In this document: positions 12,530 to 26,838 of the stretch, in pieces | Position numbering within the stretch: position 1 is the stretch's first letter | Layout of the letters: every line of letters starts with the position of its first letter | Source: a virus | Length of the DNA: 34,824 bases | Virus record (IMG/VR): IMGVR_UViG_3300010300_000046 | Location: 1 to 34,824 of that record | Reading direction: 5' to 3' (one strand) | The notes under the pieces: generated by a model | The model's input: only the letters and a program-made list of their open reading frames with translations | What the model was told of the DNA's origin: nothing | The model's database searches: none | Made by a program: the position numbers and the translations under genes

Positions 12530-13064
12530 TATCTGATATTATTATAAATTCGTAAAAAGGTTCATCTTTAAAATAAACTGTACGTAAAAAACGAGCTTTA
12601 CAAAATGTAAGCCATTTAATCGCTAGTTCATTGTCTTTATGAACAAAGTTAAAAGTTGTTGTGTATGGACGTGTTAATATTTGTGTGTATTTGCGAGAAG
12701 CCTTAATAAAGGCATATCTATTCTCATATAAGTCCTTAGTTCCAAGTAGCCAAATAAAACCGTAATCTTGCATACGTCCTGCCCCAAACATAGCTACAGG
12801 TGTACCATTTGGTGCAACGGCTGTAAAACAAGCGTCACTATCCCTCAGACCTCTTTGTAGGGCTTCGTGAGGGGTATGACCCATACAAGCTACCTCAAGG
12901 GCGTCTATGTCCCTTATATTGCTTGCTATGACGTCTACGTCGTCGTTGACCGATAAACGAACATAACCACCACCTATATGGTGTGAAACAATCTTAGACT
13001 CTTTGTGATCGTCCGTGGACGAAAGATTCAAATTCAACTGATTGGATGTTTGATGGGTAGGCAC
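12522..13064 (-). CDS. internal virion protein A, T7 gp13-like, GNAT fold
   Basis: 180 aa (T7 gp13 is 138). It has acetyltransferase-like architecture: an N-terminal strand-helix with DIDALEVACMGHTPHEAL, a central FTAVAPNGTPVAMFGAG strand pair and a C-terminal VHKDNELAIKWLTFCKARFL helix like the GNAT acceptor region. T7 gp13 has the same fold and assists core assembly without known catalysis. The ATG at 13064 gives a 71-bp overlap with tail tubular B; the first 40 residues are poorly conserved-looking and a later TTG start is possible. Confidence 0.8.
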   Translation of the reverse strand: MPTHQTSNQLNLNLSSTDDHKESKIVSHHIGGGYVRLSVNDDVDVIASNIRDIDALEVACMGHTPHEALQRGLRDSDACFTAVAPNGTPVAMFGAGRMQDYGFIWLLGTKDLYENRYAFIKASRKYTQILTRPYTTTFNFVHKDNELAIKWLTFCKARFLRTVYFKDEPFYEFIIISDNV

Positions 13065-15741
13065 TATCGTTTTCTAGATCAATGTTAACGTTTTTAGGAC
13101 TTGAATAAATAGGAAAGCGATGATCATCTTCTAAAAGAGATCTAGAAGATTTACTACCCAAAGTAGTTGTTTGTGTAGCTCTATCTTCCTGTGATACTTT
13201 TACTGCTAAATACCCTGTGTTGTCAACGAATAAACTTAAGTTTCTAAGTTTAGCACTAACACTACTACTTGGTGTTTTAACCTTATCTGAGGGTAATTTA
13301 AATAGTTGATCCGAGAAACGATACTTCATTGTATAAGCACAACCTGCAGTTATCGATTGACCTGCACCGGGAGTACCACTACCGGATTGGAATATTTTAC
13401 TACTACCTATAAATGTATTAGTAAATAAACGTGCACCTGTGTTTGTATAATAAGTTTCAATAGGTTCGGGAAATATAGAATCAACTGCTAATTGACCGTT
13501 ACTATCTGTTGTTCCTGCTTGTTGAAAATCAAGATAAAGCTCGGTGGTCGCAGGGTTAGCTTCAAAGTTTATTTTACCTATACTTAAGTAATCATTACCA
13601 CCAAAGTAACTACGGTAAAATAAATAAAGAACTGACCCCATAAACTGACAGCCAATGATTTCAACATCTTGAGGGTTTTCACTTAAATCACCAAACGTAA
13701 ACTTTGACCACGAACTCAATAATTTTTGATTACCACTAAAGAAATATTTATAAACATAAAGACAGTTAGATGTGCTACTACTTAAAGCTACAAGAACATC
13801 TTCAGTTGGTGTACCTGTTAATGCTTTAATATTTCTTGGAATGTATCTAGGTATTTGCTCAGTTATTTCAACGGAGTCGTAGACGTCGGTCGTACTGTTT
13901 AATTGAAACTCTCTAAAAGCTGTATGATTGTCACGTTCAGTTGCAAAGTAAATATAAGAACCTACAGACACAGGCTCAACTTCTTCATCAACATCATACT
14001 TAGTAACATTAGTGATTGATATAGTTCGGTTTGAAAGTAAGTCTCCACCTTTTAAAACAAATTGTCCTGTCTTTGAAAATAAGATTAAATTTTCTTGGAA
14101 ACTAGCTGTACTCGTTAAATCAGTTACTTCATCGGTAGAAACAGTAACATCAATAGGATCACTATCGAGTAATTGACTCATAGTAGTCCTAAAAAAGTTA
14201 AACACATCGCCTGCTTGACTCATAGTTACACCTTCTTTTGATAAGAAACCTAATCTGTCTTTAAAGAAGAACACATTACGAATTGGTTTACCTATAAAAC
14301 TCGGAGGAGGAACTAAAAGTCCATCACCACAAGATAATCTAGTGTAACTAGCTTCACCAATTGTAAATGTATCCGGTGCTGTACTTATTATATTATGAGG
14401 AAGTGTAGAGTCTTTTAAAGCTGTATATGTATTTGGCCCAACGGTTTCTTCCCAAGCACCCATTCCATATTGTCCTCCGTCTTCAGTCGCAAATTTTACA
14501 TACATATCATCTGTACCAATGGATACATCGCCTGCAATTTTAATTATAAAACCATTTTCACACGTATTTGGTAAATCAACTATAGAACCTGTTTTCTTGT
14601 AAAGAGCAGTTAAGCCTTGATTACCAAGACCGTCTGATGCCGAGACAATAAAGTCATTAGTTGCATTAGCTACAGATGATTTTTGAGTTAAAACAGTTAA
14701 ATTTCCGTCTTGAAATATATCAAAATTAGTACCAAAAGCTGAATTCATATCAGACCTAAGGGAAGTCATTATCGTTGTAGTATCAGCATTATTACCACTA
14801 GTGTTAGCATCTCCGGATCTAAATGAAGCAGTTCCATAATTAAATATAGTACTACTTGATTGAGCCTGTGAAGACGTAGCATTAATAGTAAAAATAAGAG
14901 GCTGATTTGTTGAATTTGGGTAAGGCCCTTCGATTGTATGATATGTACTAAATCCCGAATAGGTACTACTACTTGAGCTTAATTGGTATGCCCACTCTAT
15001 AATTTCACCATTAGAATTTGTTTTAAATTTAATATTTTTATTATAACCACTAGTTCCCCAAGCAATATTTCCGGTTATACTTGTTGAACTTGCAGTAAAG
15101 CCAACTGCGTTATTTTTAAGAGCAATACCGTAAGCAGGTGAAATTGTGTTCATAATAGGTATTAGCATAAATTGAACATTAAAACGAGGGACAACGTCAT
15201 TTCCTATTTTTAGTTCATAATCTTTTTCATAATCACCTTGCTTAATAAAAGTAACAATTTTACGCTCATAATCGGGAGTTTCGTAAGTAGATGTCGTGTC
15301 TTGCTCAGTTGTAACTGTACTATTACACACAAAAGTTGTATCACCTATTGTAGTGAATTTTAAATCGTCAATAGCACTAGGGTGTAAATAAGGTGTATTG
15401 GATGAGTTAGCTGTATATGTCCCTGTAACTCCATTAATTGAACATTGAGCACCTGTGAGTAGATTATATATTCGATAAGTTGTAGACGACGACCCTGTCC
15501 TATTAATTATAACAACATATTTTTCATTTTCATCACGATCAATAAAATGTGTTGTGTAAGTACCGGTTAATGAATTAAAAAGTTTCTTTATGTGTTTTAA
15601 AGGTGGGCGTTTAGTTAAACCATCAACAACACTACTCAAAGCGTTTTCCTGTATCTCGCATTGTCCGGCAAATCTAGTTGAATCGGGTTGTTGGGAAACA
15701 CCTCCGATTATGCTTGATATAGAAGTATTTACTAATGGCAT
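12994..15741 (-). CDS. tail tubular protein B (nozzle), T7 gp12-like
   Basis: 915 aa (T7 gp12 is 794). The N-terminus MPLVNTSISSIIGGVSQQPD...GLTKRPPLKHI matches the conserved gp12 start (GGISQQPD ... GLQKRPPL). The rest is beta-rich and Ser/Thr/Asn-rich, with a conserved-looking core near FKDRLGFLSKEGVTMSQAGD. gp12 forms the hexameric nozzle below the gp11 adaptor and gates DNA. It directly follows the gp11-like gene at TAATATG. Confidence is high from the N-terminal motif and synteny. Confidence 0.94.
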   Translation of the reverse strand: MPLVNTSISSIIGGVSQQPDSTRFAGQCEIQENALSSVVDGLTKRPPLKHIKKLFNSLTGTYTTHFIDRDENEKYVVIINRTGSSSTTYRIYNLLTGAQCSINGVTGTYTANSSNTPYLHPSAIDDLKFTTIGDTTFVCNSTVTTEQDTTSTYETPDYERKIVTFIKQGDYEKDYELKIGNDVVPRFNVQFMLIPIMNTISPAYGIALKNNAVGFTASSTSITGNIAWGTSGYNKNIKFKTNSNGEIIEWAYQLSSSSSTYSGFSTYHTIEGPYPNSTNQPLIFTINATSSQAQSSSTIFNYGTASFRSGDANTSGNNADTTTIMTSLRSDMNSAFGTNFDIFQDGNLTVLTQKSSVANATNDFIVSASDGLGNQGLTALYKKTGSIVDLPNTCENGFIIKIAGDVSIGTDDMYVKFATEDGGQYGMGAWEETVGPNTYTALKDSTLPHNIISTAPDTFTIGEASYTRLSCGDGLLVPPPSFIGKPIRNVFFFKDRLGFLSKEGVTMSQAGDVFNFFRTTMSQLLDSDPIDVTVSTDEVTDLTSTASFQENLILFSKTGQFVLKGGDLLSNRTISITNVTKYDVDEEVEPVSVGSYIYFATERDNHTAFREFQLNSTTDVYDSVEITEQIPRYIPRNIKALTGTPTEDVLVALSSSTSNCLYVYKYFFSGNQKLLSSWSKFTFGDLSENPQDVEIIGCQFMGSVLYLFYRSYFGGNDYLSIGKINFEANPATTELYLDFQQAGTTDSNGQLAVDSIFPEPIETYYTNTGARLFTNTFIGSSKIFQSGSGTPGAGQSITAGCAYTMKYRFSDQLFKLPSDKVKTPSSSVSAKLRNLSLFVDNTGYLAVKVSQEDRATQTTTLGSKSSRSLLEDDHRFPIYSSPKNVNIDLENDSAYPSNIQSVEFESFVHGRSQRV

Positions 15742-15742
15742 A

Positions 15743-17746
15743 TTAAACTAAGTCGTAGTTTCTGTTAACACCTACTCTAGTAGCTGTGTCGTAATTATTG
15801 AATATATTATAATTACCTTGATCGTTTTGGCGATCCTTAAAGTAAGTTTCAAGCTCTTGTTCTAACTTTGGTAGACGTTGAATATCAATACCACTTTGTG
15901 GGTATAGCTCTGTTAGTAATCTAGCAGTTCTTACTTCGACATACTCTTGGAACTTCTGTGGTGTTTCGTCAAGATCACGGCTGTAAATAATAGTGGCTTT
16001 TTGTGTGCCTTCCCACTCATTGTACTTTTTAGTATCTAAATTTCTAAGATAAAACGCATTTCCTACCTTTTGTTTTGTTGTTGGTACATCATTTAGTTCT
16101 ATACTTAACCAATCAGATAGGTAACTAATAAGTGAGTTATTTGGAACGACGTCTACGTCTGTCTCTGTATTGAACCACCAACCACGAGATTGTAATTCTG
16201 TGTTAGTTTTTAACATTAACTCATACGCTTCAGAAGCTAGCGATGATTCATTTGTATTAGTAACTTGTTCTTCACCGATGTATCTTAAAATATTATTTAC
16301 ATATTCTATAAGAGAAGTGCTATTTATTGTTCTTGCTGAACGCATAGTATTTGCATCTTCTAATAACTCTTTCTTTTTGTAAGCAGGTAAAGCATTAAAT
16401 GTAGTTTCTTGAAAACCCATTATACGCATTTCCGGTCTAAAATTTTTGTAAGTAAAGAAACCCGATTGACCTAATAGACCTACACCTCGATTAGCATTAT
16501 AATTCTTTTCTTCAGTTACTATGTAAGCTGTTTCGTTATCTAATTTAGTTTTCTGAGATGTAAGTAAATTCTTCTCAGCTTGTATCTTATTTGTGTTCTC
16601 TTCTTCAGTTAATTTCTGTTTCTCTAAAAGCTCTTTTTGGCTAATAGTGAGCATTGTCTCTTCATTAATTTTAAGACGTTGACCTTCTACTAACTCTGCT
16701 TCTTTTTGACGCTTGTCACTTTCAGCGATTTCAGTGATAAACTGTTGTTGTAAAAGATCTGTTTCTTCGTGAACACGTAGTCTTGTTGCTTCTTTGATAC
16801 CTACGTCAGCACTAATATCTGATTGTCTGACTTTCTCAGTATTTACCTGTTCATCGATAAGACTACCCTGCTTACCTTTAATAGTAGTGTCAGCTTCGAC
16901 ATCTAACTTCTTCGAACCTTCTGTGGCTGTCTGTGCGTCTACGAGTGACCCTTGTTTACCTTTGATACTTATGTCAGCACTAATGTCAGCCTGTCTTGCT
17001 TTTTCGGTGTCAGCTTGTGTGTCTATAAGTGAGCCCTGCTTACCTTTTAAATCAGTATCTGCCTCAACGTCTAGTTTCTTTGAACCTTCGGTAGCTGTCT
17101 GTGCATCTACAAGTGAACCTTGCTTACCTTTGATGCTTATATCAGCACTTATATCAGATTGCTGTACCTTCTTAAGTTTTGTGTCTTCGTCGACGGCTAA
17201 TTTTTGAGCATCAGTTAATAATTTCTCTGAAGCTAATTTTTCGCCTTGCTTAAGTTCGGTATTAAGACGAATAGTTAAAAGTTTTTCTTCAGCACTTGAT
17301 TGAAGGAATAACACTTCCTCAATACCCATATCTTTAACTGTGTCGGGTATAGCTGTAAACGACGTCGTCGTACCACTCTCTTTTGCTTGTCTAGCTGACA
17401 GGATAGCAAAAGCTACCTGCTCTTCATTAAAGCTGAATTTGTGTAACTCCTCAGAACTAAGGAAACGACTCTGCATAACTCTAGCAGAACGAATAGTAAT
17501 GTATCTTACTGCTTCCTCGGGAATATTAGTGTTAAAATCATTAGAAGCGTTTGTATAAATACTTATACTGCCACCACTTGTATTAAACCACCAACCCTTA
17601 GATTGAGTTTCTCTACTTACTTCTTCAATAATTTGACGAGCAATGACTGCATTAGGATTAGTACTTGTATTTGCTGTAGTAAGAGCAGATTCTCCTATTA
17701 CACTAAGACAAGTGTTGACAGCGTCGTGTAGAGTTGTAGTGGACAT
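15743..17746 (-). CDS. tail tubular protein A with duplicated gp11-like domain and repeat spacer
   Basis: 667 aa, over three times T7 gp11 (196). Residues 475-655 form a complete gp11-like adaptor: TSLIEYVNNILRYIGEEQV, LQSRGWWFNTET (519-530), SRDLDETPQKFQEYVEVRTA and a GNYNIFNNYD end. Residues 5-115 repeat the same pattern in shorter form: TTLHDAVNTCLSVIGESAL, TQSKGWWFNTSG (47-58) and EEAVRYITIRSARV, with the middle lost. Between them, residues 150-420 are a charged coiled-coil-like spacer with KGKQGSL at 206, 234, 262 and 290, exactly 28 residues apart. The adaptor ring joins portal to nozzle; what the additional copy and spacer do is unknown. The gene begins three bases after the upstream stop and ends with TAATATG into tail tubular B. 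Confidence 0.9.
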   Translation of the reverse strand: MSTTTLHDAVNTCLSVIGESALTTANTSTNPNAVIARQIIEEVSRETQSKGWWFNTSGGSISIYTNASNDFNTNIPEEAVRYITIRSARVMQSRFLSSEELHKFSFNEEQVAFAILSARQAKESGTTTSFTAIPDTVKDMGIEEVLFLQSSAEEKLLTIRLNTELKQGEKLASEKLLTDAQKLAVDEDTKLKKVQQSDISADISIKGKQGSLVDAQTATEGSKKLDVEADTDLKGKQGSLIDTQADTEKARQADISADISIKGKQGSLVDAQTATEGSKKLDVEADTTIKGKQGSLIDEQVNTEKVRQSDISADVGIKEATRLRVHEETDLLQQQFITEIAESDKRQKEAELVEGQRLKINEETMLTISQKELLEKQKLTEEENTNKIQAEKNLLTSQKTKLDNETAYIVTEEKNYNANRGVGLLGQSGFFTYKNFRPEMRIMGFQETTFNALPAYKKKELLEDANTMRSARTINSTSLIEYVNNILRYIGEEQVTNTNESSLASEAYELMLKTNTELQSRGWWFNTETDVDVVPNNSLISYLSDWLSIELNDVPTTKQKVGNAFYLRNLDTKKYNEWEGTQKATIIYSRDLDETPQKFQEYVEVRTARLLTELYPQSGIDIQRLPKLEQELETYFKDRQNDQGNYNIFNNYDTATRVGVNRNYDLV
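16820..17155. repeat. two 168-bp tandem repeats inside tail tubular A
   Basis: Residues 198-253 and 254-309 of tail tubular A are near-identical 56-aa units (DISADISIKGKQGSLVDAQ...), with a partial third unit starting at residue 310. Each unit is itself two diverged 28-aa halves. The DNA copies differ at many third positions, so the duplication is not very recent or is kept at protein level. Confidence 0.9.
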
Positions 17747-17749
17747 AAA

Positions 17750-18178
17750 TTATAATTGTGTTTCGGGGGTTAAGAAACGACTACCAACTGTGTCTGTAAC
17801 AGATGATTCGTTTTCAACAAAAGTAACTGTGTATGTTGTGTGTCGTTTATTATTGTCTCTATCTCTTACTTGACTTCTAGTCATTTTGAAAGCTCTAGGC
17901 ATAACGTGAGTACTAGAGTTCTTTTTGTCCATATACTTATCGAACAAGTAACGCATCATAACAAAGTAAACATAACGAACATCACCTGTAGTTTCATTTA
18001 AATGTAATGCAAGACTACTAGCTGATTGACCATCAACTGTACCACTAGGGCCTCCAACAGCATCTTCGTAGAACATATTCATATCGAGTTGGAATATACC
18101 CATTGATGATGTAAAGTCGTAGTCGATACCAAACCAATCTACGGGATTATTGTCGTTGTGAACGTAAGTATGAGACAT
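17750..18178 (-). CDS. 142-aa protein of unknown function, probable head-tail component
   Basis: Not in T7, where gene 11 follows gene 10. The N-terminus MSHTYVHNDNNPVDWFGIDY is followed by a central helix ALHLNETTGDVRYVYFVMMR and a basic C-terminal beta segment (RDNNKRHTTYTVTFVENESS). It is the first gene after the capsid terminator and sits directly before the tail tubular A gene, which suggests a structural or connector role. No signal peptide or TM segment. I recognise no family. The ATG at 18178 has no Shine-Dalgarno (TTTTATTATTATG). Confidence 0.75.
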   Translation of the reverse strand: MSHTYVHNDNNPVDWFGIDYDFTSSMGIFQLDMNMFYEDAVGGPSGTVDGQSASSLALHLNETTGDVRYVYFVMMRYLFDKYMDKKNSSTHVMPRAFKMTRSQVRDRDNNKRHTTYTVTFVENESSVTDTVGSRFLTPETQL

Positions 18179-18250: not shown

Positions 18251-19384
18251 TTAGTTGTCTGAGACTGCGTCATCTCCACTACTTCCTTCTTCCGGAACGA
18301 TAGAGATAGCACACTCGGGACGTAGTACACCGTGTCCCATTGCATATTTAGCAACGAACAATGTACCTTGTCTTTCGATTTGATACTCAGATTCAGTAGC
18401 TAAGTCTAATAACTTAACTGTACCGATAGCTTCTTTTGTACCACCGATGATACCATAAACGTGTGGATCAGCAGTTGTACCTGCACCGTGACGTAAAGCA
18501 CGGAAGTCACCATCATAACCGGTTGTACCGGATAATGTAGGCTGAACAGCACCACTTGTAGAATCAATTGAGTTCTTAGTGTTAAGAGCTCCTGCGACGT
18601 CTACGATGTGGTTAGACTTGAATAAGCTGATACCTGCAACCATAGGTATAGTACCTGTTGCAAGGCTACCTGCTCCACCAACGTCTGTATTTACTGCTGA
18701 GTTAACTACATTACCATTGTCGGCTGTAATTAATTGGTAGTAAGTTGAAGGGTGAAGGATAGCGAAACGACCTTCTTGAGGTGCGTTCTTCTCATCAAGT
18801 GTTTGAGCCATTGTGAACAAGGCATCAATGATACCTGCAGTTGTCTTCAATGTAGCTGAAGGAATGTGGACTGATGAGCCACCGTCAGTTACACCTGTAA
18901 TGTTAGCAGATGCTTTAGAAGCAAGGTAAAGAGTCTTCATTGTAGCAATGTCGAATCTCTTAGCTAGTGCTTTACCAAGTTCTTGGGCGTATACTGAACG
19001 AATATCGAAGTGAGTTTTAAGCTCATCAATGTTCGCTAGGAATGTTGATGAAGTTAACATCTCGTCGATAAGGATAACTTTCTCTGATTTTTGAATGTCA
19101 GATAAGTAACCACTACCTTCGATCAATGAATTACCCGGAGTGTGGTATTTCGCAGAAGCGATACCTGTAACAGGGAACTGAGCTGATTTACCATTAGAGA
19201 TGGTACGGATAGTGTGAAGACCTTTCATTATGTTAGCGTCTTCGAAAGCAGTGAGAATCTCACCACTGAATACCTTGAGGAACAAGGCGTTCTCCAATGC
19301 GTTCGACGTAGTCGTGTTATCGGTATTGAAATTATAACCAACACGTGAAGCAGGGAGAGATGCTGATAAGGCTGGATTTGCCAT
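18251..19384 (-). CDS. major capsid protein, T7 gp10A-like
   Basis: 377 aa (T7 gp10A is 345). HK97-fold shell protein. Matches to gp10 are clear: FLKVFSGEILTAFEDANIM (35-53), ISNGKSAQFPVTG (62-74), YHTPGN, EKVILIDEMLTSSTFL and FDIRSVYAQELGKALAKRFD. It has the best Shine-Dalgarno in the window, AAGGAGA eleven bases before the ATG, while most neighbours have none, and is followed at once by a strong terminator, so it should be highly expressed. I see no slippery site or second frame for a gp10B-like extension. Confidence 0.96.
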   Translation of the reverse strand: MANPALSASLPASRVGYNFNTDNTTTSNALENALFLKVFSGEILTAFEDANIMKGLHTIRTISNGKSAQFPVTGIASAKYHTPGNSLIEGSGYLSDIQKSEKVILIDEMLTSSTFLANIDELKTHFDIRSVYAQELGKALAKRFDIATMKTLYLASKASANITGVTDGGSSVHIPSATLKTTAGIIDALFTMAQTLDEKNAPQEGRFAILHPSTYYQLITADNGNVVNSAVNTDVGGAGSLATGTIPMVAGISLFKSNHIVDVAGALNTKNSIDSTSGAVQPTLSGTTGYDGDFRALRHGAGTTADPHVYGIIGGTKEAIGTVKLLDLATESEYQIERQGTLFVAKYAMGHGVLRPECAISIVPEEGSSGDDAVSDN

Positions 19385-20294: not shown

Positions 20295-20585
20295 TTAAAA
20301 TCCTAGTTTTTCAAGTTTCCATTCAAGATGCTCTATTCGCATATTCTGCTCAACATCTAATGGTAAAATTCCATCTGACTCCCATTCATCAATCCAAGTA
20401 GCGTTGACGTTGACGTCGTCAGATAATCGAGCCTGTTCGTGCTCAAGCATCATTATACGCTCGTCTACACCAAAGTAACCGATAACGGCTACAGCTACGC
20501 CTGCGATGATCGCTAATAGATTCCTAAGTGGAATTGTTATTCCTGTGTCCTCTCCAAGTTCTAACGGAGAGGGTTTATTAGGCAT
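20295..20585 (-). CDS. 96-aa membrane-anchored coiled-coil protein
   Basis: Residues 18-39 (IPLRNLLAIIAGVAVAVIGY) form a single transmembrane helix after a short N-terminal segment; the rest is acidic and helical (ERIMMLEHEQARLSDDVNV, ...MRIEHLEWKLEKLGF). The layout (TM then periplasmic or cytoplasmic coiled coil) resembles inner-membrane spanins and some holin-like phage proteins of marine phages. It sits next to a 3TM holin-like gene, so a lysis role is likely but unproven. It overlaps the upstream gene by eight bases. Confidence 0.75.
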   Translation of the reverse strand: MPNKPSPLELGEDTGITIPLRNLLAIIAGVAVAVIGYFGVDERIMMLEHEQARLSDDVNVNATWIDEWESDGILPLDVEQNMRIEHLEWKLEKLGF

Positions 20586-21075
20586 CGTTAAAATATATAG
20601 CTACTTTGATCTCTATAGTTTGAGGTATTGGTGTAGTAGCTGTATTAGTTGTTAAACTCCATCTAATCTCTCCGATGTCGTCAGAAGACATTTGACCACT
20701 ACCACTACCGTATGTAGGTTGGATACTATATTGTTTTCCTAGTTCAACAGTACCACCTAAAGCAGTTAGTAAATCATACCTTACAGTTCCACCTACAGCA
20801 GTTAACTGAAGCATATCAAATGTACCTGTACCGGTACTTTCAAATGTAATCATTTTGATACGATTCGTAGCATTATCTACACTAACGACTTCGAAATAAG
20901 TACTTGCAGAATTTAGTATTTCTCTATCTGCTTGGACAACATTAGCGTTATCTACTGTAATAGCACTTGAAGTAACTGTAGGAGCTGTGACTGTTTCGAC
21001 GAATGAGCCGTGGGGAGACGATATAGATTTAATTGTCCCACCCGTAATATTTGTTGTTCTAACTTGTATTGACAT
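20578..21075 (-). CDS. 165-aa beta-rich protein of unknown function
   Basis: I take ATG 21075 (MSIQVRTTNITGG) rather than the longer reading from 21114, because 21075 falls in the TAATATG junction used by neighbours and the extra 13 residues would overlap the holin. The protein is Thr/Ser/Val-rich, Cys-free and beta-strand-like (ITFESTGTGTFDMLQL, ...GEIRWSLTTNTATTPIPQTI). Size and composition would suit a head decoration or fibre protein; this is a guess from character and its place near capsid. Confidence 0.75.
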   Translation of the reverse strand: MSIQVRTTNITGGTIKSISSPHGSFVETVTAPTVTSSAITVDNANVVQADREILNSASTYFEVVSVDNATNRIKMITFESTGTGTFDMLQLTAVGGTVRYDLLTALGGTVELGKQYSIQPTYGSGSGQMSSDDIGEIRWSLTTNTATTPIPQTIEIKVAIYFNDA

Positions 21076-21076
21076 A

Positions 21077-21481
21077 TTATTTTTTAATTGAGGATGAGCC
21101 AAAGTAATAACCAACGATGGCTATTAGTGTGGTACGGATTTCGGGTAAGATTACAAAACCTTCTAAGGTCTTCCAAGTTTCCCACGTAAAGAATAAAAGT
21201 GATTTCTGTTCACTCACGGTGACTCCTTGTGTCATAAACGCCATAAGGAATGGAGCGACGACGACGCCAAACAAACATACCATTACAATTAGACGACGTA
21301 CCCACTCTCCTCCACGCTTAGAAGCCTTATCGTGGCTTTCGTCTGCAAGTTGTTGAGTAGCTACATTGGCTTCTACTTTTTGTTTGTTGAGTTCAATACT
21401 ACTTGAAACAAAAAGTCCAATTACTTTTGTAATAGCACCTACGCCTGTGCCTAAGAATAATGATATAAGTTCGCTTGTCAT
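21077..21481 (-). CDS. 3TM holin-like membrane protein
   Basis: 134 aa with hydrophobic helices at about 5-27, 63-85 and 112-128 and a conserved basic stretch GGEWVRRLIVMVCLFGVVVA (57-76), then FVILPEIRTTLIAIVGYYFG near the C-terminus and SSSIKK. This arrangement resembles the three-TM holins of gene transfer agents and marine phages (GTA_holin_3TM-like, from memory). It would make the inner membrane hole at lysis. The start at 21479-21481 overlaps a two-codon mini-ORF (ATG AAA TGA at 21486-21478) that is better spaced from the AGGG site, which may hold down expression. Confidence 0.8.
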   Translation of the reverse strand: MTSELISLFLGTGVGAITKVIGLFVSSSIELNKQKVEANVATQQLADESHDKASKRGGEWVRRLIVMVCLFGVVVAPFLMAFMTQGVTVSEQKSLLFFTWETWKTLEGFVILPEIRTTLIAIVGYYFGSSSIKK

Positions 21482-22249: not shown

Positions 22250-23773
22250 TTATTCCTCGCTCTGTTGTTTAATTAAATCTGTTCCACTTTTCATTGCTTG
22301 AGGGCCAAGCTTCTCAGCCATCTGCATTTGTTGTGCTTGTTGCATTTCTTCTTGTATCTGTTCTTGAGACTTCACAAGTCCTGCTGTTTTGATACCAAGG
22401 CTTGTAGCTCTACGTTTAAGGTATTCTTCGGGGTTAATATACTGAGACATAACCTCCGGCCCTAATGTTTGTACTACACCTTGTAAGAACATATCTAGCT
22501 TCTGTAAATCGTTCCCTCTACCAAGAGCCTCAACACCTGTAATGATGACGGGGTTGACGACGTCCTTCGGTAACTTAGGTAACTTACGTTTACGGTTCAT
22601 TACATCCATAATACGATTTACCATCGGCAAAGACAGTTCGGTTGAAAATAAAGAGTAGACACCACCTAGAGCATTCTCAAGCTCCATAGATAGCATTCTG
22701 ATTTCTTCAGCAGTTACACGCTCAGCATTTCTAACTGTACCACTTGTGAGTAAGAAAGCGTGACCTAAGCGTTCTTTGATTGTCTCTATAGTTTCAGAGG
22801 CAACTCTAAGGTCATTATGTTTCTGTACTTGTAATACTTGAACATCACTTGCATTACCTTGGACAATAGCTCCGTTAGGTGATTCTGCAAGTGTACGAGC
22901 TCTTGTAGTACCATTAGGATTAACCATAAACAGTACTTTAGCTGACGCTGAAGATCCTTCAACGATTGCTCTTGTAAGTCCTTCAAGTGATTGTACATCT
23001 CCAAGATACTCTTCAACATAACCACGTCCGTAACTCTCGCCATCAATACGTGTGAACCTAAGTGCAATGTAAGGATTCTTATCAAGTTTGTATGAACCTT
23101 CAGAACCCGGAATACGCACTCCGTTAATATCTTGGAATACTTCCCACTTATTACCTATGCGACACACAGCAGTATATAGTTCGTAGTCGTCGTCGATCGC
23201 ACCATCCACACCAACAGCTTCTTGCATCTCGGGACTCAAGGCTGTACGTGCAATAGTTTCTTTAGTTACAATGTGTAAGATATTACCCATTGGGTCTCTG
23301 TCGACGACATACCTATCAAGATGAAATACTCTCATTCCACCTGTGTCGGGTAAGTATATCAAAGCATTACCTGTGATTATTAAATGCTTAAGGGCTTCGT
23401 GTAAGCCGGTTCTGTAAGACTCACGAGATACTTCATCCATTACAGCTTCTTCTACTTGCTGTAACTGAGTCTCGATAGAGCTTATGAACTCGGGTGGAGC
23501 ACCTTCTGCTTGTAAACCGAACGTGTCTATGTTTAATCTGAAAAATGGAGCATTGGGTGGTAGGAGTGCTAACAATAGTTTGGAGGCGAGGTTATTTACT
23601 CCTCGAGCCCCAATGCTCGAAAATGGTGTATCTAGCCGAGAGTGAGCTCCAAAGCCCGAATCCGGCATAATGTAAGGTAATGTTAATCTCGAGCAAGTTC
23701 TAGCACGATCAACGTATTGGTATCTCTTACCTTCTAAAGTATTATATAATGATTGTGCTGTGACGTTGTGCAT
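22250..23773 (-). CDS. portal (head-tail connector), T7 gp8-like
   Basis: 507 aa (T7 gp8 is 536). The N-terminal YVDRARTCSRLTLPYIMP (20-37) and TPFSSIGARGVNNLASKLLL (49-68) match the gp8 core (RARTC..., VGARGLNNLASKLMLALFP). The Gln/Met-rich C-terminus (QEEMQQAQQMQMAEK) is also usual. It forms the dodecameric DNA entry ring that docks terminase and tail tubular A. It starts at TAATATG shared with the upstream gene. Confidence 0.96.
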   Translation of the reverse strand: MHNVTAQSLYNTLEGKRYQYVDRARTCSRLTLPYIMPDSGFGAHSRLDTPFSSIGARGVNNLASKLLLALLPPNAPFFRLNIDTFGLQAEGAPPEFISSIETQLQQVEEAVMDEVSRESYRTGLHEALKHLIITGNALIYLPDTGGMRVFHLDRYVVDRDPMGNILHIVTKETIARTALSPEMQEAVGVDGAIDDDYELYTAVCRIGNKWEVFQDINGVRIPGSEGSYKLDKNPYIALRFTRIDGESYGRGYVEEYLGDVQSLEGLTRAIVEGSSASAKVLFMVNPNGTTRARTLAESPNGAIVQGNASDVQVLQVQKHNDLRVASETIETIKERLGHAFLLTSGTVRNAERVTAEEIRMLSMELENALGGVYSLFSTELSLPMVNRIMDVMNRKRKLPKLPKDVVNPVIITGVEALGRGNDLQKLDMFLQGVVQTLGPEVMSQYINPEEYLKRRATSLGIKTAGLVKSQEQIQEEMQQAQQMQMAEKLGPQAMKSGTDLIKQQSEE

Positions 23774-24039: not shown

Positions 24040-26838
24040 TTAAGAATAAAGTTCGTATTGATTGTTTAAGTTTTCCTTTAGTGCAGGAAGGTTGATCGTT
24101 TGATCGTTAGTAAATAAAATTGCTTCATTCATTGTTCCCGTTAGAGCATAGATAGGCTGATTAGAACTGTTTAACGCTCTTGTTGAATGATGGTTTTCAC
24201 CAATAATGTCAAAACCTTGTGATAAGCCTCCTGCAAATGTAGTAGTATGTGTTTGAGAATTATCATTTAAATGTACAGTAGGAACGTCGTCGTTTTTGAC
24301 CATATAAATGTACATAACTTGTGTACCCTTAGTGGTCGTTAATTGATTAGCAGTAAATTGGTTCGAACTACTACGTCTTAAAATTGGTTGCTGAGATGAG
24401 TTTAAGGCAAGGTCTAATGTTGTACCTGCAAATGTATTTCTAGCAACAGTATCAAGCGTTCTACTAACCACAAACACAGCAGTACATTGATTTCCTAAAG
24501 GAACACCTACGGGTGTACCTCCAAAGCCTCCTTGTGATGTAGCTAAACGCATCAAGTTATTATTGGTAAATACCATACCACGTTTATCATAACCACCATT
24601 ACGGATAATGTATGGTTGTCTAGTTTGGTCTATTTGTTGGTAGTCGTTATTACCTTCTGATTGGTCATACCAAATAGAAACACGACCTTCTCGATTATGT
24701 CTTGAAATCTTAATATTCTTAAGACTTACTGTACCACCACCATTTGGGTTTGTACTTATAATAACTAAATTATTTAAATCAGCAGTAGTACTATTTCTTG
24801 AGAAACTGAAAGCTACTTGACCACTATTTGAGTGAAACGAAGCAGAATTAGTTAAAGTACCACCCGATAAATTATTACGAAACTCAGCAACAAAACTCAT
24901 ACCCGGTGTAGTTTCCTTTGGATCAACAAAGAAAGATACTCTAATTACATCAAACTGTTCTTCTGTTTTATATACTTTATTTCTAGTATTTAGTAGAATC
25001 CGAAGGAAACGAGATGATGTAACTGAGTCGTTTATTGTATATTTTAAATCTCTTTTAAATCCAATATCAGTTTCAACTCCCGATGGTAAAGTTACTCCAT
25101 TAGCTGTACCACTAAAGTGAGAACGTACTGCTCCATCCCATTCGTATTCGTCGTCGTATAAACCGTAATAATTATTAGTACTAGATTCAATCAACCATCT
25201 ATTGTCCTGTTGGTCACCTGCGTAGAATATAAATTCTGAACAATCACCTTGGAAATTATTGTTATTAGTTACATTTGGGTCTTCTGCAAGTTGTTGTTCA
25301 TTGAATATAACACGAGCAACTAAGTGTCTAGTTGATCCTTTTGAATTATTCTGCATATGTAGATCAGCTCCATTACTGTAACCCTCATATGTATGTAGGG
25401 TTGTGCTTCCATCTACAAGTCCATCAGTTCCTTGACTAAATACACCATCACGTGCCCAATCGTTATAACCACCACCAAAATTTAAATCTCCTTCATAAGG
25501 AAACCCGTGATAATTTGTAAGTCTAGTAGGCTGTACCAAAATACCTCGTGTACCTCCTCCTCCGTGAGTATTACCGGTGACGTGATCTGAAACAAGATAA
25601 TAGTTACCACTTGTTTGGTCTCGTTTACCTAGTTTAGTATACATCATATACTCAGTATCAGTAGTAGCATAGACGTATTCATCAGCGATCATCCATTTAC
25701 CATTACCAAAATCAGCAATTGTTGGGTGACCATTTTCATCAAGTTTAAGTAAACCATACTCTGCAACTGTTGCTTGTTTACTTTGGTCTGTTTGTCTAAA
25801 GTGATTACCACGAGTTGTTTGATCATACCAAACACTTAAAGTCGCTGTGTGTGCAGTACCTTGAATCTTAATATCCTCTACGTCAAATAACTCACCGTCA
25901 TTAACTAATAGGTCATTACAAGTAAATCTAAATATTGCTCCCGTAGTGGCATTAGTAAAGGCATAATCAAATTCAAAGTTACCTGTTCTTCCTGCCGGTA
26001 TACTGCCTACAGTTTTGTATCCTTGTCCATCGACGAGTTGCCACAACTGAACGTTTATGTTAGCACTTAGTGTATTACGAGTGACACGACAAGTAACCTT
26101 TATATTTCCTTTTTTGATGTCAGCATAGTTTTGACCACCGGATCTGATATCAAAGTCTTGATTTCCACTTTTAGAAACAATAGAATTGAATGACGAATTG
26201 GTAGCATTAGTTACAAGAGCTTGTCCGATTCGAGCCCCGTTACCATCAACTTGAGATATAAACGTATTACCCAAAGGTATGTCTACAGTCTCATTTAAAA
26301 ATTCTTTATAGGTTTGACCCGACTCTGTGCGTGATCTGTCAACAATACCTGTACGTGAGTCAACGTAGACGTCGACCTCTTTCGTATCTGTAGAACGACG
26401 CACACGAATGACTTTGTCGTTGTAACCACGTTTCATCTGACGAAGACCATAAACACCTTTACAGTTAGTCGGGTCTACATCAGCAGGTAAAACAGTTGAC
26501 CATTTGTTGGCAACCCAATCCTCTAAGTGTTTAATATTCTTAGCTTGAAAGTCTGCTTCATTATATACTGAACCATCGTTAGTTCGTCTTACACGAGCAA
26601 CTGTACTACTACCATCACTATTTACTAAGTCCCTAAATGAACAAGCAACACTCGCACCACCTACTACTTTTGATAAAAGAGGTTTTGATTCACCCTTTCT
26701 CGAGTTTTCGGGGATTGCTCGTCGGTCAACTTTAAGTGTTGAGCCTTCGGGTCTGATACCTGTTGGGTTGTCTCGGTTCACCGAAATGGAAGAGGTGCTT
26801 CCATCCCCGTGAGTTACGGTGTAGTTTCTTGATGACAT
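24040..26838 (-). CDS. tail adhesin/fibre with two AbfB/LamG-like modules
   Basis: 932 aa. The N-terminal 120 residues are unlike T7 gp17. From residue 128 (GVYGLRQMKRGYNDKVIRVR) comes a motif typical of arabinofuranosidase-B-like regions in marine phage tail proteins. Two concanavalin-like modules follow: the first about 330-560 (VSVWYDQ-type WYDQ at 337-340, closing RWLIESSTNNYYGLYD), the second about 715-932 (WYDQ at 723-726, closing KENLNNQYELYS). Related carbohydrate-binding-like segments lie before each (245-330, 600-712). It likely binds surface glycans of the host. It sits between the exonuclease region and the portal, not after IVP-D as in T7. Confidence 0.85.
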   Translation of the reverse strand: MSSRNYTVTHGDGSTSSISVNRDNPTGIRPEGSTLKVDRRAIPENSRKGESKPLLSKVVGGASVACSFRDLVNSDGSSTVARVRRTNDGSVYNEADFQAKNIKHLEDWVANKWSTVLPADVDPTNCKGVYGLRQMKRGYNDKVIRVRRSTDTKEVDVYVDSRTGIVDRSRTESGQTYKEFLNETVDIPLGNTFISQVDGNGARIGQALVTNATNSSFNSIVSKSGNQDFDIRSGGQNYADIKKGNIKVTCRVTRNTLSANINVQLWQLVDGQGYKTVGSIPAGRTGNFEFDYAFTNATTGAIFRFTCNDLLVNDGELFDVEDIKIQGTAHTATLSVWYDQTTRGNHFRQTDQSKQATVAEYGLLKLDENGHPTIADFGNGKWMIADEYVYATTDTEYMMYTKLGKRDQTSGNYYLVSDHVTGNTHGGGGTRGILVQPTRLTNYHGFPYEGDLNFGGGYNDWARDGVFSQGTDGLVDGSTTLHTYEGYSNGADLHMQNNSKGSTRHLVARVIFNEQQLAEDPNVTNNNNFQGDCSEFIFYAGDQQDNRWLIESSTNNYYGLYDDEYEWDGAVRSHFSGTANGVTLPSGVETDIGFKRDLKYTINDSVTSSRFLRILLNTRNKVYKTEEQFDVIRVSFFVDPKETTPGMSFVAEFRNNLSGGTLTNSASFHSNSGQVAFSFSRNSTTADLNNLVIISTNPNGGGTVSLKNIKISRHNREGRVSIWYDQSEGNNDYQQIDQTRQPYIIRNGGYDKRGMVFTNNNLMRLATSQGGFGGTPVGVPLGNQCTAVFVVSRTLDTVARNTFAGTTLDLALNSSQQPILRRSSSNQFTANQLTTTKGTQVMYIYMVKNDDVPTVHLNDNSQTHTTTFAGGLSQGFDIIGENHHSTRALNSSNQPIYALTGTMNEAILFTNDQTINLPALKENLNNQYELYS

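Follow-up and report, generated by a model that had tools for sequence, protein, structure and literature searches.

Short T7-like tails are regarded as fixed machines, made of portal, adaptor and nozzle. The solved adaptors of T7 (gp11) and P-SCSP1u (gp22) combine a bundle of four helices with a beta fiber dock and an embracing helix at the terminus (PMC6702177, PMC10575957). T7 gp11 contacts the portal clip through residues E173, E175 and D177 and the nozzle through the loop that links helices 1 and 2 (PMC6702177); the docking site of the T7 fibers lies between the adaptor and the nozzle (PMC10575957), and the fiberless tail measures 293 Å overall (PMC6702177). In the N4-like phages (Schitoviridae) the tail tube is a separate protein after a separate adaptor, ending in a plug; the solved examples are N4 gp54 and DEV gp75 (9lc0, 9bgm; phrog_2050). 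DEV gp75 is a dodecamer about 330 Å long with a bore of 36 Å, and its N-terminal end lies at the adaptor, facing the head (PMC10925440).

The locus and its relatives

The stretch of viral DNA analysed here, which we call the window, comprises 34,824 bases; its record is linear and may be missing genes. A 667-aa gene occupies the position of T7 gene 11 in it, between the major capsid gene and the nozzle gene (Table 1). Its protein has a gp11-type copy at either end (the N copy and the C copy) and a long heptad spacer bounded by two junctions, X1 and X2. Between the genes for capsid and adaptor lies a 142-aa ORF (17750-18178, minus strand) that has no PHROG match; it is present in about 20 examined clade loci and absent from others. 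Upstream of the portal gene, a 932-aa protein (24040-26838, minus strand) matches the virion structural family phrog_10356 weakly and shows little conservation inside the clade, and a 178-aa ORF between the scaffold and capsid genes (20578-21114, minus strand) was seen in one examined locus only, the near-identical L001. No fiber N-terminal domain was found in the 34,824-base window.

Table 1. Positions of the adaptor-spacer-adaptor gene, its parts and neighbouring genes in the window (aa, residues of the 667-aa protein).
Feature	Residues (aa)	Position in window	Strand	Remarks
Whole gene, 667 aa		15743..17746	minus	ORF: N copy, X1, heptad spacer, X2, C copy
N copy	1-123	17378..17746	minus	gp11 four-helix bundle without fiber dock
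Fiber dock gap in N copy	57-76	17519..17578	minus	PF17212 positions 52-111 absent; model without strands
Junction X1	124-165	17252..17377	minus	..GIEEVLFLQ..EEK..; near-invariant residues in A1 and A3
Heptad spacer, proposed tube helix	142-419	16490..17323	minus	predicted helix; length 3 modulo 7
Four 28-aa units (KGKQGSL repeat)	197-308	16823..17158	minus	
Junction X2	420-475	16322..16489	minus	..EMRIMGFQE..F..PAYKKKELL..; many invariant residues in A1
C copy	476-667	15746..16321	minus	complete gp11 adaptor
Fiber dock of C copy	527-588	15983..16168	minus	five strands in AlphaFold2 secondary structure
Counterparts of portal-contact acids	638-642	15821..15835	minus	T7 gp11 E173/E175/D177
C-terminal tail	643-667	15746..15820	minus	counterpart of embracing helix
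Nozzle gene, T7 gp12 type		12994..15741	minus	PF25675 (Phage_nozzle), E 1.4e-173
Major capsid gene		18251-19384		next to it a 142-aa ORF, then the 667-aa gene
Portal gene		22250..23773	minus	clip near-identical to that of S45-C18

Judged by its terminase (69.5% identical), Ayaqvirus S45-C18 (AP013544) is the closest named relative; it comes from Mediterranean plankton, and the named relatives suggest a marine origin for the window's virus as well. S45-C18 has a similar gene order, an almost identical portal clip and a like C-terminal tail on its adaptor; that adaptor, however, is a single ordinary protein of 198 aa, with neither duplication nor tube. The adaptor-spacer-adaptor architecture itself occurs in at least about 75 IMG/VR loci or contigs, and each of two IMG/VR scans returned at least 80 loci, nearly all of them relatives of the 667-aa gene. 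Eleven larger clade records give adaptor matches in several pieces, and S45-C18 gives one whole adaptor. Among annotated phage records none has the double adaptor (0 of the 583 matching records cover 80% of the protein), a scan of prokaryote genomes with the N domain yielded zero confirmed relatives, and no description of a double adaptor was found in the papers searched. In Pasteurella phage PHB01 a 'tail tubular protein A'' seemed a possible second adaptor gene and was rejected, the region listing one adaptor.

A tree of 38 domains places every N copy in one group and every C copy in another, which indicates that the architecture is old and that its halves have been evolving separately since. 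Two relatives from sample 3300046167 (L069, 5983-7661, and L026, 5983-7615) have a frameshift in the N copy at nearly the same place, just past the missing fiber dock and in different directions; these may be assembly errors or real. That either locus holds two separate genes was rejected, since the reading frames show frameshifts within the N copy.

Two adaptor copies in one chain

A preliminary description of the locus had proposed two gp11-like domains, the C-terminal one complete and the N-terminal one without its middle, on the basis of landmarks that we locate at residues 49-56 (SKGWWFNT) and 520-527 (SRGWWFNT) of the 667-aa protein. It had staked the proposal on two comparisons, self-alignment against shuffled sequence and the folds of the two ends, and the duplication stands in both. 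The likeness of the N and C copies goes far beyond shuffles: blastp gives E 5e-10, and the Smith-Waterman score is 101, with 2000 shuffles at 31.8 ± 5.3 and a maximum of 60. In the C copy, the Pfam profile PF17212 (Tube) is matched at its positions 2-136. The N copy matches it twice, at 2-51 and at 112-165, and all of these matches lie above the cut-off; because both pieces of the N copy pass the cut-off, its middle is genuinely absent.

Structure prediction agrees, within the moderate confidence of the AlphaFold2 models, which are monomers with mean pLDDT values of 69 (full chain) and 65 (N domain). In the full-chain model the N end has four helices and zero strands, and the C end has the bundle, five strands and the terminal helix; the C domain matches T7 gp11 chains with Z 17.2 over 170 residues. 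For the N domain folded alone, the best PDB match is P-SCSP1u gp22 (8i4m_G; Z 12.4, rmsd 2.2, 97 residues), and the first 24 PDB entries are phage adaptor or tail-complex chains, with unrelated rows starting near Z 5. Both ends thus match gp11-type adaptor structures, with no differing folds, and each is, as modelled, a carrier of the gp11 fold. Since a profile piece is missing from the N copy and the N-end model has no strands, yet retains the adaptor fold, the gap corresponds to the fiber dock.

The C copy has the full set of features seen in the T7 gp11 family, i.e. PF17212, a fold with bundle, dock and terminal helix, the portal acids and the tail. The N copy has PF17212 and the four-helix bundle; the fiber dock (by profile and model) and the portal-contact acids of the family are both absent from it. 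Relative to the T7 gp11 adaptors (tail tubular protein A, PF17212; T7 6r21, P-SCSP1u gp22 8i4m), the fold is shared by both ends, the position between capsid and nozzle genes by the gene, and the portal acids and C-terminal tail by the C copy, whereas here there are two copies per chain, the N copy being without dock or portal acids, and 150-900 extra residues between and around the copies. The dock of the C copy is itself missing in about ten relatives. The C copies of five others (L068, L045, L020, L031 and L038) have extra insertions in the dock, so that the stretch after GWWFN comes to 232-319 aa against the usual length of about 145 aa; in L068 the dock includes a long threonine-rich stretch.

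The two copies keep different contact faces. At the portal-contact positions, nearly all of the 34 C copies are acidic, and the N copies mostly have Q, H or R; the family has D, E, D there and the window's C copy D, Q, D. The tail of the C copy, IFNNYDTATRVGVNRN, resembles the tail of the single adaptor of S45-C18, IFDNYDTATRIGINRR, and the window's portal clip is nearly unchanged from that of S45-C18, a phage with an ordinary single adaptor. On the nozzle side, the loops of the N copy are about as close to single adaptors as single adaptors are to each other; for the helix 3-4 loop the similarity to single adaptors is 2.07 for N copies, 1.95 among the single adaptors and -1.02 for C copies. 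The T7 nozzle contact D39 is not retained in the N copies. With acids and tail on the C copy, an unchanged clip, and adaptor-like loops on the N copy, the best-fitting arrangement has the C ring at the portal and the N ring at the nozzle.

The junctions X1 and X2 are alike (profile E 4.5e-5; 72% of pairs exceed the 99th percentile of shuffles), even though X1 stands after its adaptor copy and X2 before its own.

The heptad spacer and N4-type tail tubes

The spacer holds the motif KGKQGSL four times, exactly 28 residues apart (at 206, 234, 262 and 290), as had been noted before. The best repeat is one of 56 aa, made of two alternating 28s on an underlying 7-residue period. Between residues 197-224 and 253-280 the identity is 96% at the protein level and 85% in DNA, 12 of the 27 identical residues having a different codon, and Tandem Repeats Finder detected zero DNA-level tandem repeats. 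Protein repeats that are alike, with codons that differ and no repeat in the DNA, mean that selection maintains the pattern and that it is no fresh DNA repeat. AlphaFold2 places helices at residues 142-220, 225-365 and 380-419, so that the spacer is predicted to be a nearly continuous helix.

Measured between the FLQ and [AE]EK motifs, spacer length is 3 modulo 7 in all 29 of the 29 measurable relatives, which have 23 distinct lengths between 73 and 598 aa; gains and losses therefore come in whole heptads only. The proteins of the window and of the relative L003 are about 90% identical where aligned, yet differ by 203 aa, that is 29 heptads. Odd and even heptad counts are equally common among the distinct lengths (12 and 11), which is what one straight helix would give and does not fit an equal-armed hairpin.

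Searches with the spacer lead to tail tubes. Among 50,697 phage records the window's spacer has seven matches, all in the gp54-type gene of Vibrio phages of 73-77 kb, with a similarity to these tube members of E 2e-14. The spacer of another relative (L024), which has a different sequence, matches N4-like phages only in the same records, including two Schitoviridae, Acinetobacter Ab2712 and Alteromonas PT15-A5; in the latter the matched gene is the second past the capsid genes. In every case checked, the matched gene is annotated as, or placed at, the N4 gp54 tail-tube gene, and the BUCT194 protein is clearly related in sequence to the solved tubes DEV gp75 and N4 gp54 (PDB 9bgm, 9lc0). Plasmids gave zero matches to the spacer. 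Against the PDB, the family profile returns twelve adaptor sequences below E 1e-5 and then DEV gp75 at E 0.0026, which is its sole non-adaptor match below E 0.3; no other coiled coil appears. Profile-profile comparison of the family with the tubes gives a probability of 96.5 and E 8.5e-10.

The likeness extends to the heptads themselves. The residue code of the spacers correlates with that of six non-Vibrio tubes at r = 0.72 in one register, the next best register being at about 0; shuffles reach at most 0.43, 63 control segments at most 0.29, and tropomyosin 0.27. In spacers and tubes alike, more than half of the heptads have glutamine at one given position, which follows an alanine-rich one. 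Among the known tubes, too, lengths tend to differ by multiples of seven: 7 of 12 share one length residue modulo 7. The gp54-type tube of the Acinetobacter phage Presley (L099, 465-2177) has 570 aa against 213-400 in the other sampled tubes; judged by it, N4-like tubes may vary greatly in length, mostly by whole heptads.

Other comparisons bound this likeness. The spacer alone, as a single sequence, has zero matches among PDB sequences, and PHROG and Pfam scans of the spacers gave weak scattered matches only; PHROG 2050, the gp54 family, is not matched by the spacers, whereas known tubes match it at E 1e-58 to 1e-80. Profile comparison did not significantly detect, in X1 or X2, the conserved caps that gp54 tubes carry at their N- and C-termini; a profile alignment running into X2 had hinted that the spacer ends are homologous to these caps, an idea rejected because the alignment is not significant without the repeats. 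As the caps go undetected and PHROG 2050 is unmatched, what we claim is the same kind of shaft and not gp54 membership; judged on sequence, the likeness could stem from common descent or from convergence, both being possible. The spacer and the N4-like tubes share a helical shaft, a 7/14/28-residue pattern, the heptad code with its glutamine position and a variable length (213-570 aa in the tubes sampled), but here the shaft would be fused between two adaptors, with the nozzle beyond.

Proposed assembly of the tail

We consider it probable that the protein forms a covalent adaptor-tube-adaptor, with a C ring on the portal, a tube of twelve helices and an N ring on the nozzle. Twelve chains would come together, their C-terminal gp11 domains as a 12-fold ring of the usual kind, seated on the portal clip, and their heptad helices side by side as a 12-helix tube in the fashion of N4-like phages; the N-terminal domains would make a second ring at the far end, its nozzle-binding face toward the hexameric gp12-type nozzle. 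The N ring could form without a portal because the tube would keep the twelve N domains together. DNA would pass from the portal through the C ring, tube and N ring to the nozzle, and the number of heptads would set the length of the tail, with whole-heptad changes leaving both rings undisturbed. At 1.5 Å per residue, 278 residues correspond to about 42 nm, and at the ratio of DEV gp75 (330 Å for 321 aa) to about 29 nm, so that a T7-type tail might be lengthened by roughly 30-40 nm. We infer the twelve-fold assembly, the tube in place of separate rods, and the orientation. Counting against this adaptor-tube-adaptor are the unmatched caps and PHROG 2050, the absence of PDB sequence matches to the spacer as a single sequence, the opposite orientation of the DEV tube, the loss of D39 and the moderate pLDDT.

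The outer collar or extended anchor suggested in the preliminary description is not borne out, given that the spacer matches N4-type tubes in code and sequence and that the two copies keep opposite faces. The C copy might alone form a ring, with the spacers as outward whiskers or a collar, i.e. coiled-coil rods or hairpins with the N domain folded back or carried at the tip. Since T7 gp11 stays a monomer when no portal is present (PMC6702177), a ring is not required of a free N domain, and a heptad-quantised length is expected of any coiled coil. We nevertheless hold such whiskers to be unlikely: the code is specific to tail tubes and not to coiled coils generally, the equal frequency of odd and even heptad numbers is contrary to equal-armed hairpins, and adaptor-like nozzle-side loops on the N copies are unexpected at a whisker tip.

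Also unlikely, and next in order, is the same tube reversed, in which the portal carries the N ring, the tube runs N to C away from the head, and the complete C copy with its dock lies at the nozzle together with the fibers. We retain this orientation because the N-terminal end of the DEV tube, which adjoins the adaptor, faces the head (PMC10925440), and the position of T7 fibers between adaptor and nozzle (PMC10575957) would suit a fiber dock on the C copy. The portal acids and embracing tail are, however, on the C copies and not on the N copies, while the portal clip is unchanged, and two relatives whose C copies are dockless (L013 and L018) still have a T7-type fiber gene in their records. 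The retention of fiber genes in dockless relatives argues that the dock does not determine fiber position, and suggests that the fibers hold mainly to the nozzle and the helix bundle, a fiber site that we infer.

Six copies could instead make a pseudo-12-fold ring, N and C domains alternating on the portal and the spacers looped out. Such a ring would ease the step from 12-fold to 6-fold symmetry, and on the nozzle the T7 gp11 loops do adopt two states in alternation (PMC6702177); it is nonetheless very improbable, as the N copies are without portal acids and tail although the clip is unchanged, and there would be no need for a loop of up to about 600 aa in strict heptad phase. Least credible of all is that duplication and spacer are a near-neutral accident with the C copy doing all the work, for, against the swing of 203 aa in spacer length between relatives about 90% identical, there are many invariant residues in the N copy and the junctions, the repeats keep their protein sequence while codons differ, and the heptad phase is never broken.

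On the adaptor-tube-adaptor reading, we lean, on balance, toward a marine-type T7-like clade whose tails would range from about 10 nm to more than 80 nm, their length encoded in the number of heptads, by means of a duplicated adaptor and an N4-type shaft. If this is true, a T7-type tail has been lengthened within one chain by adaptor rings and an N4-type shaft, its length would follow from the count of heptads, with no tape-measure protein, and the oversized 'tail tubular protein A' genes of viral metagenomes would be explained. It would also predict a virion shape that can be searched for in micrographs, and would link two tail types that have been held separate.
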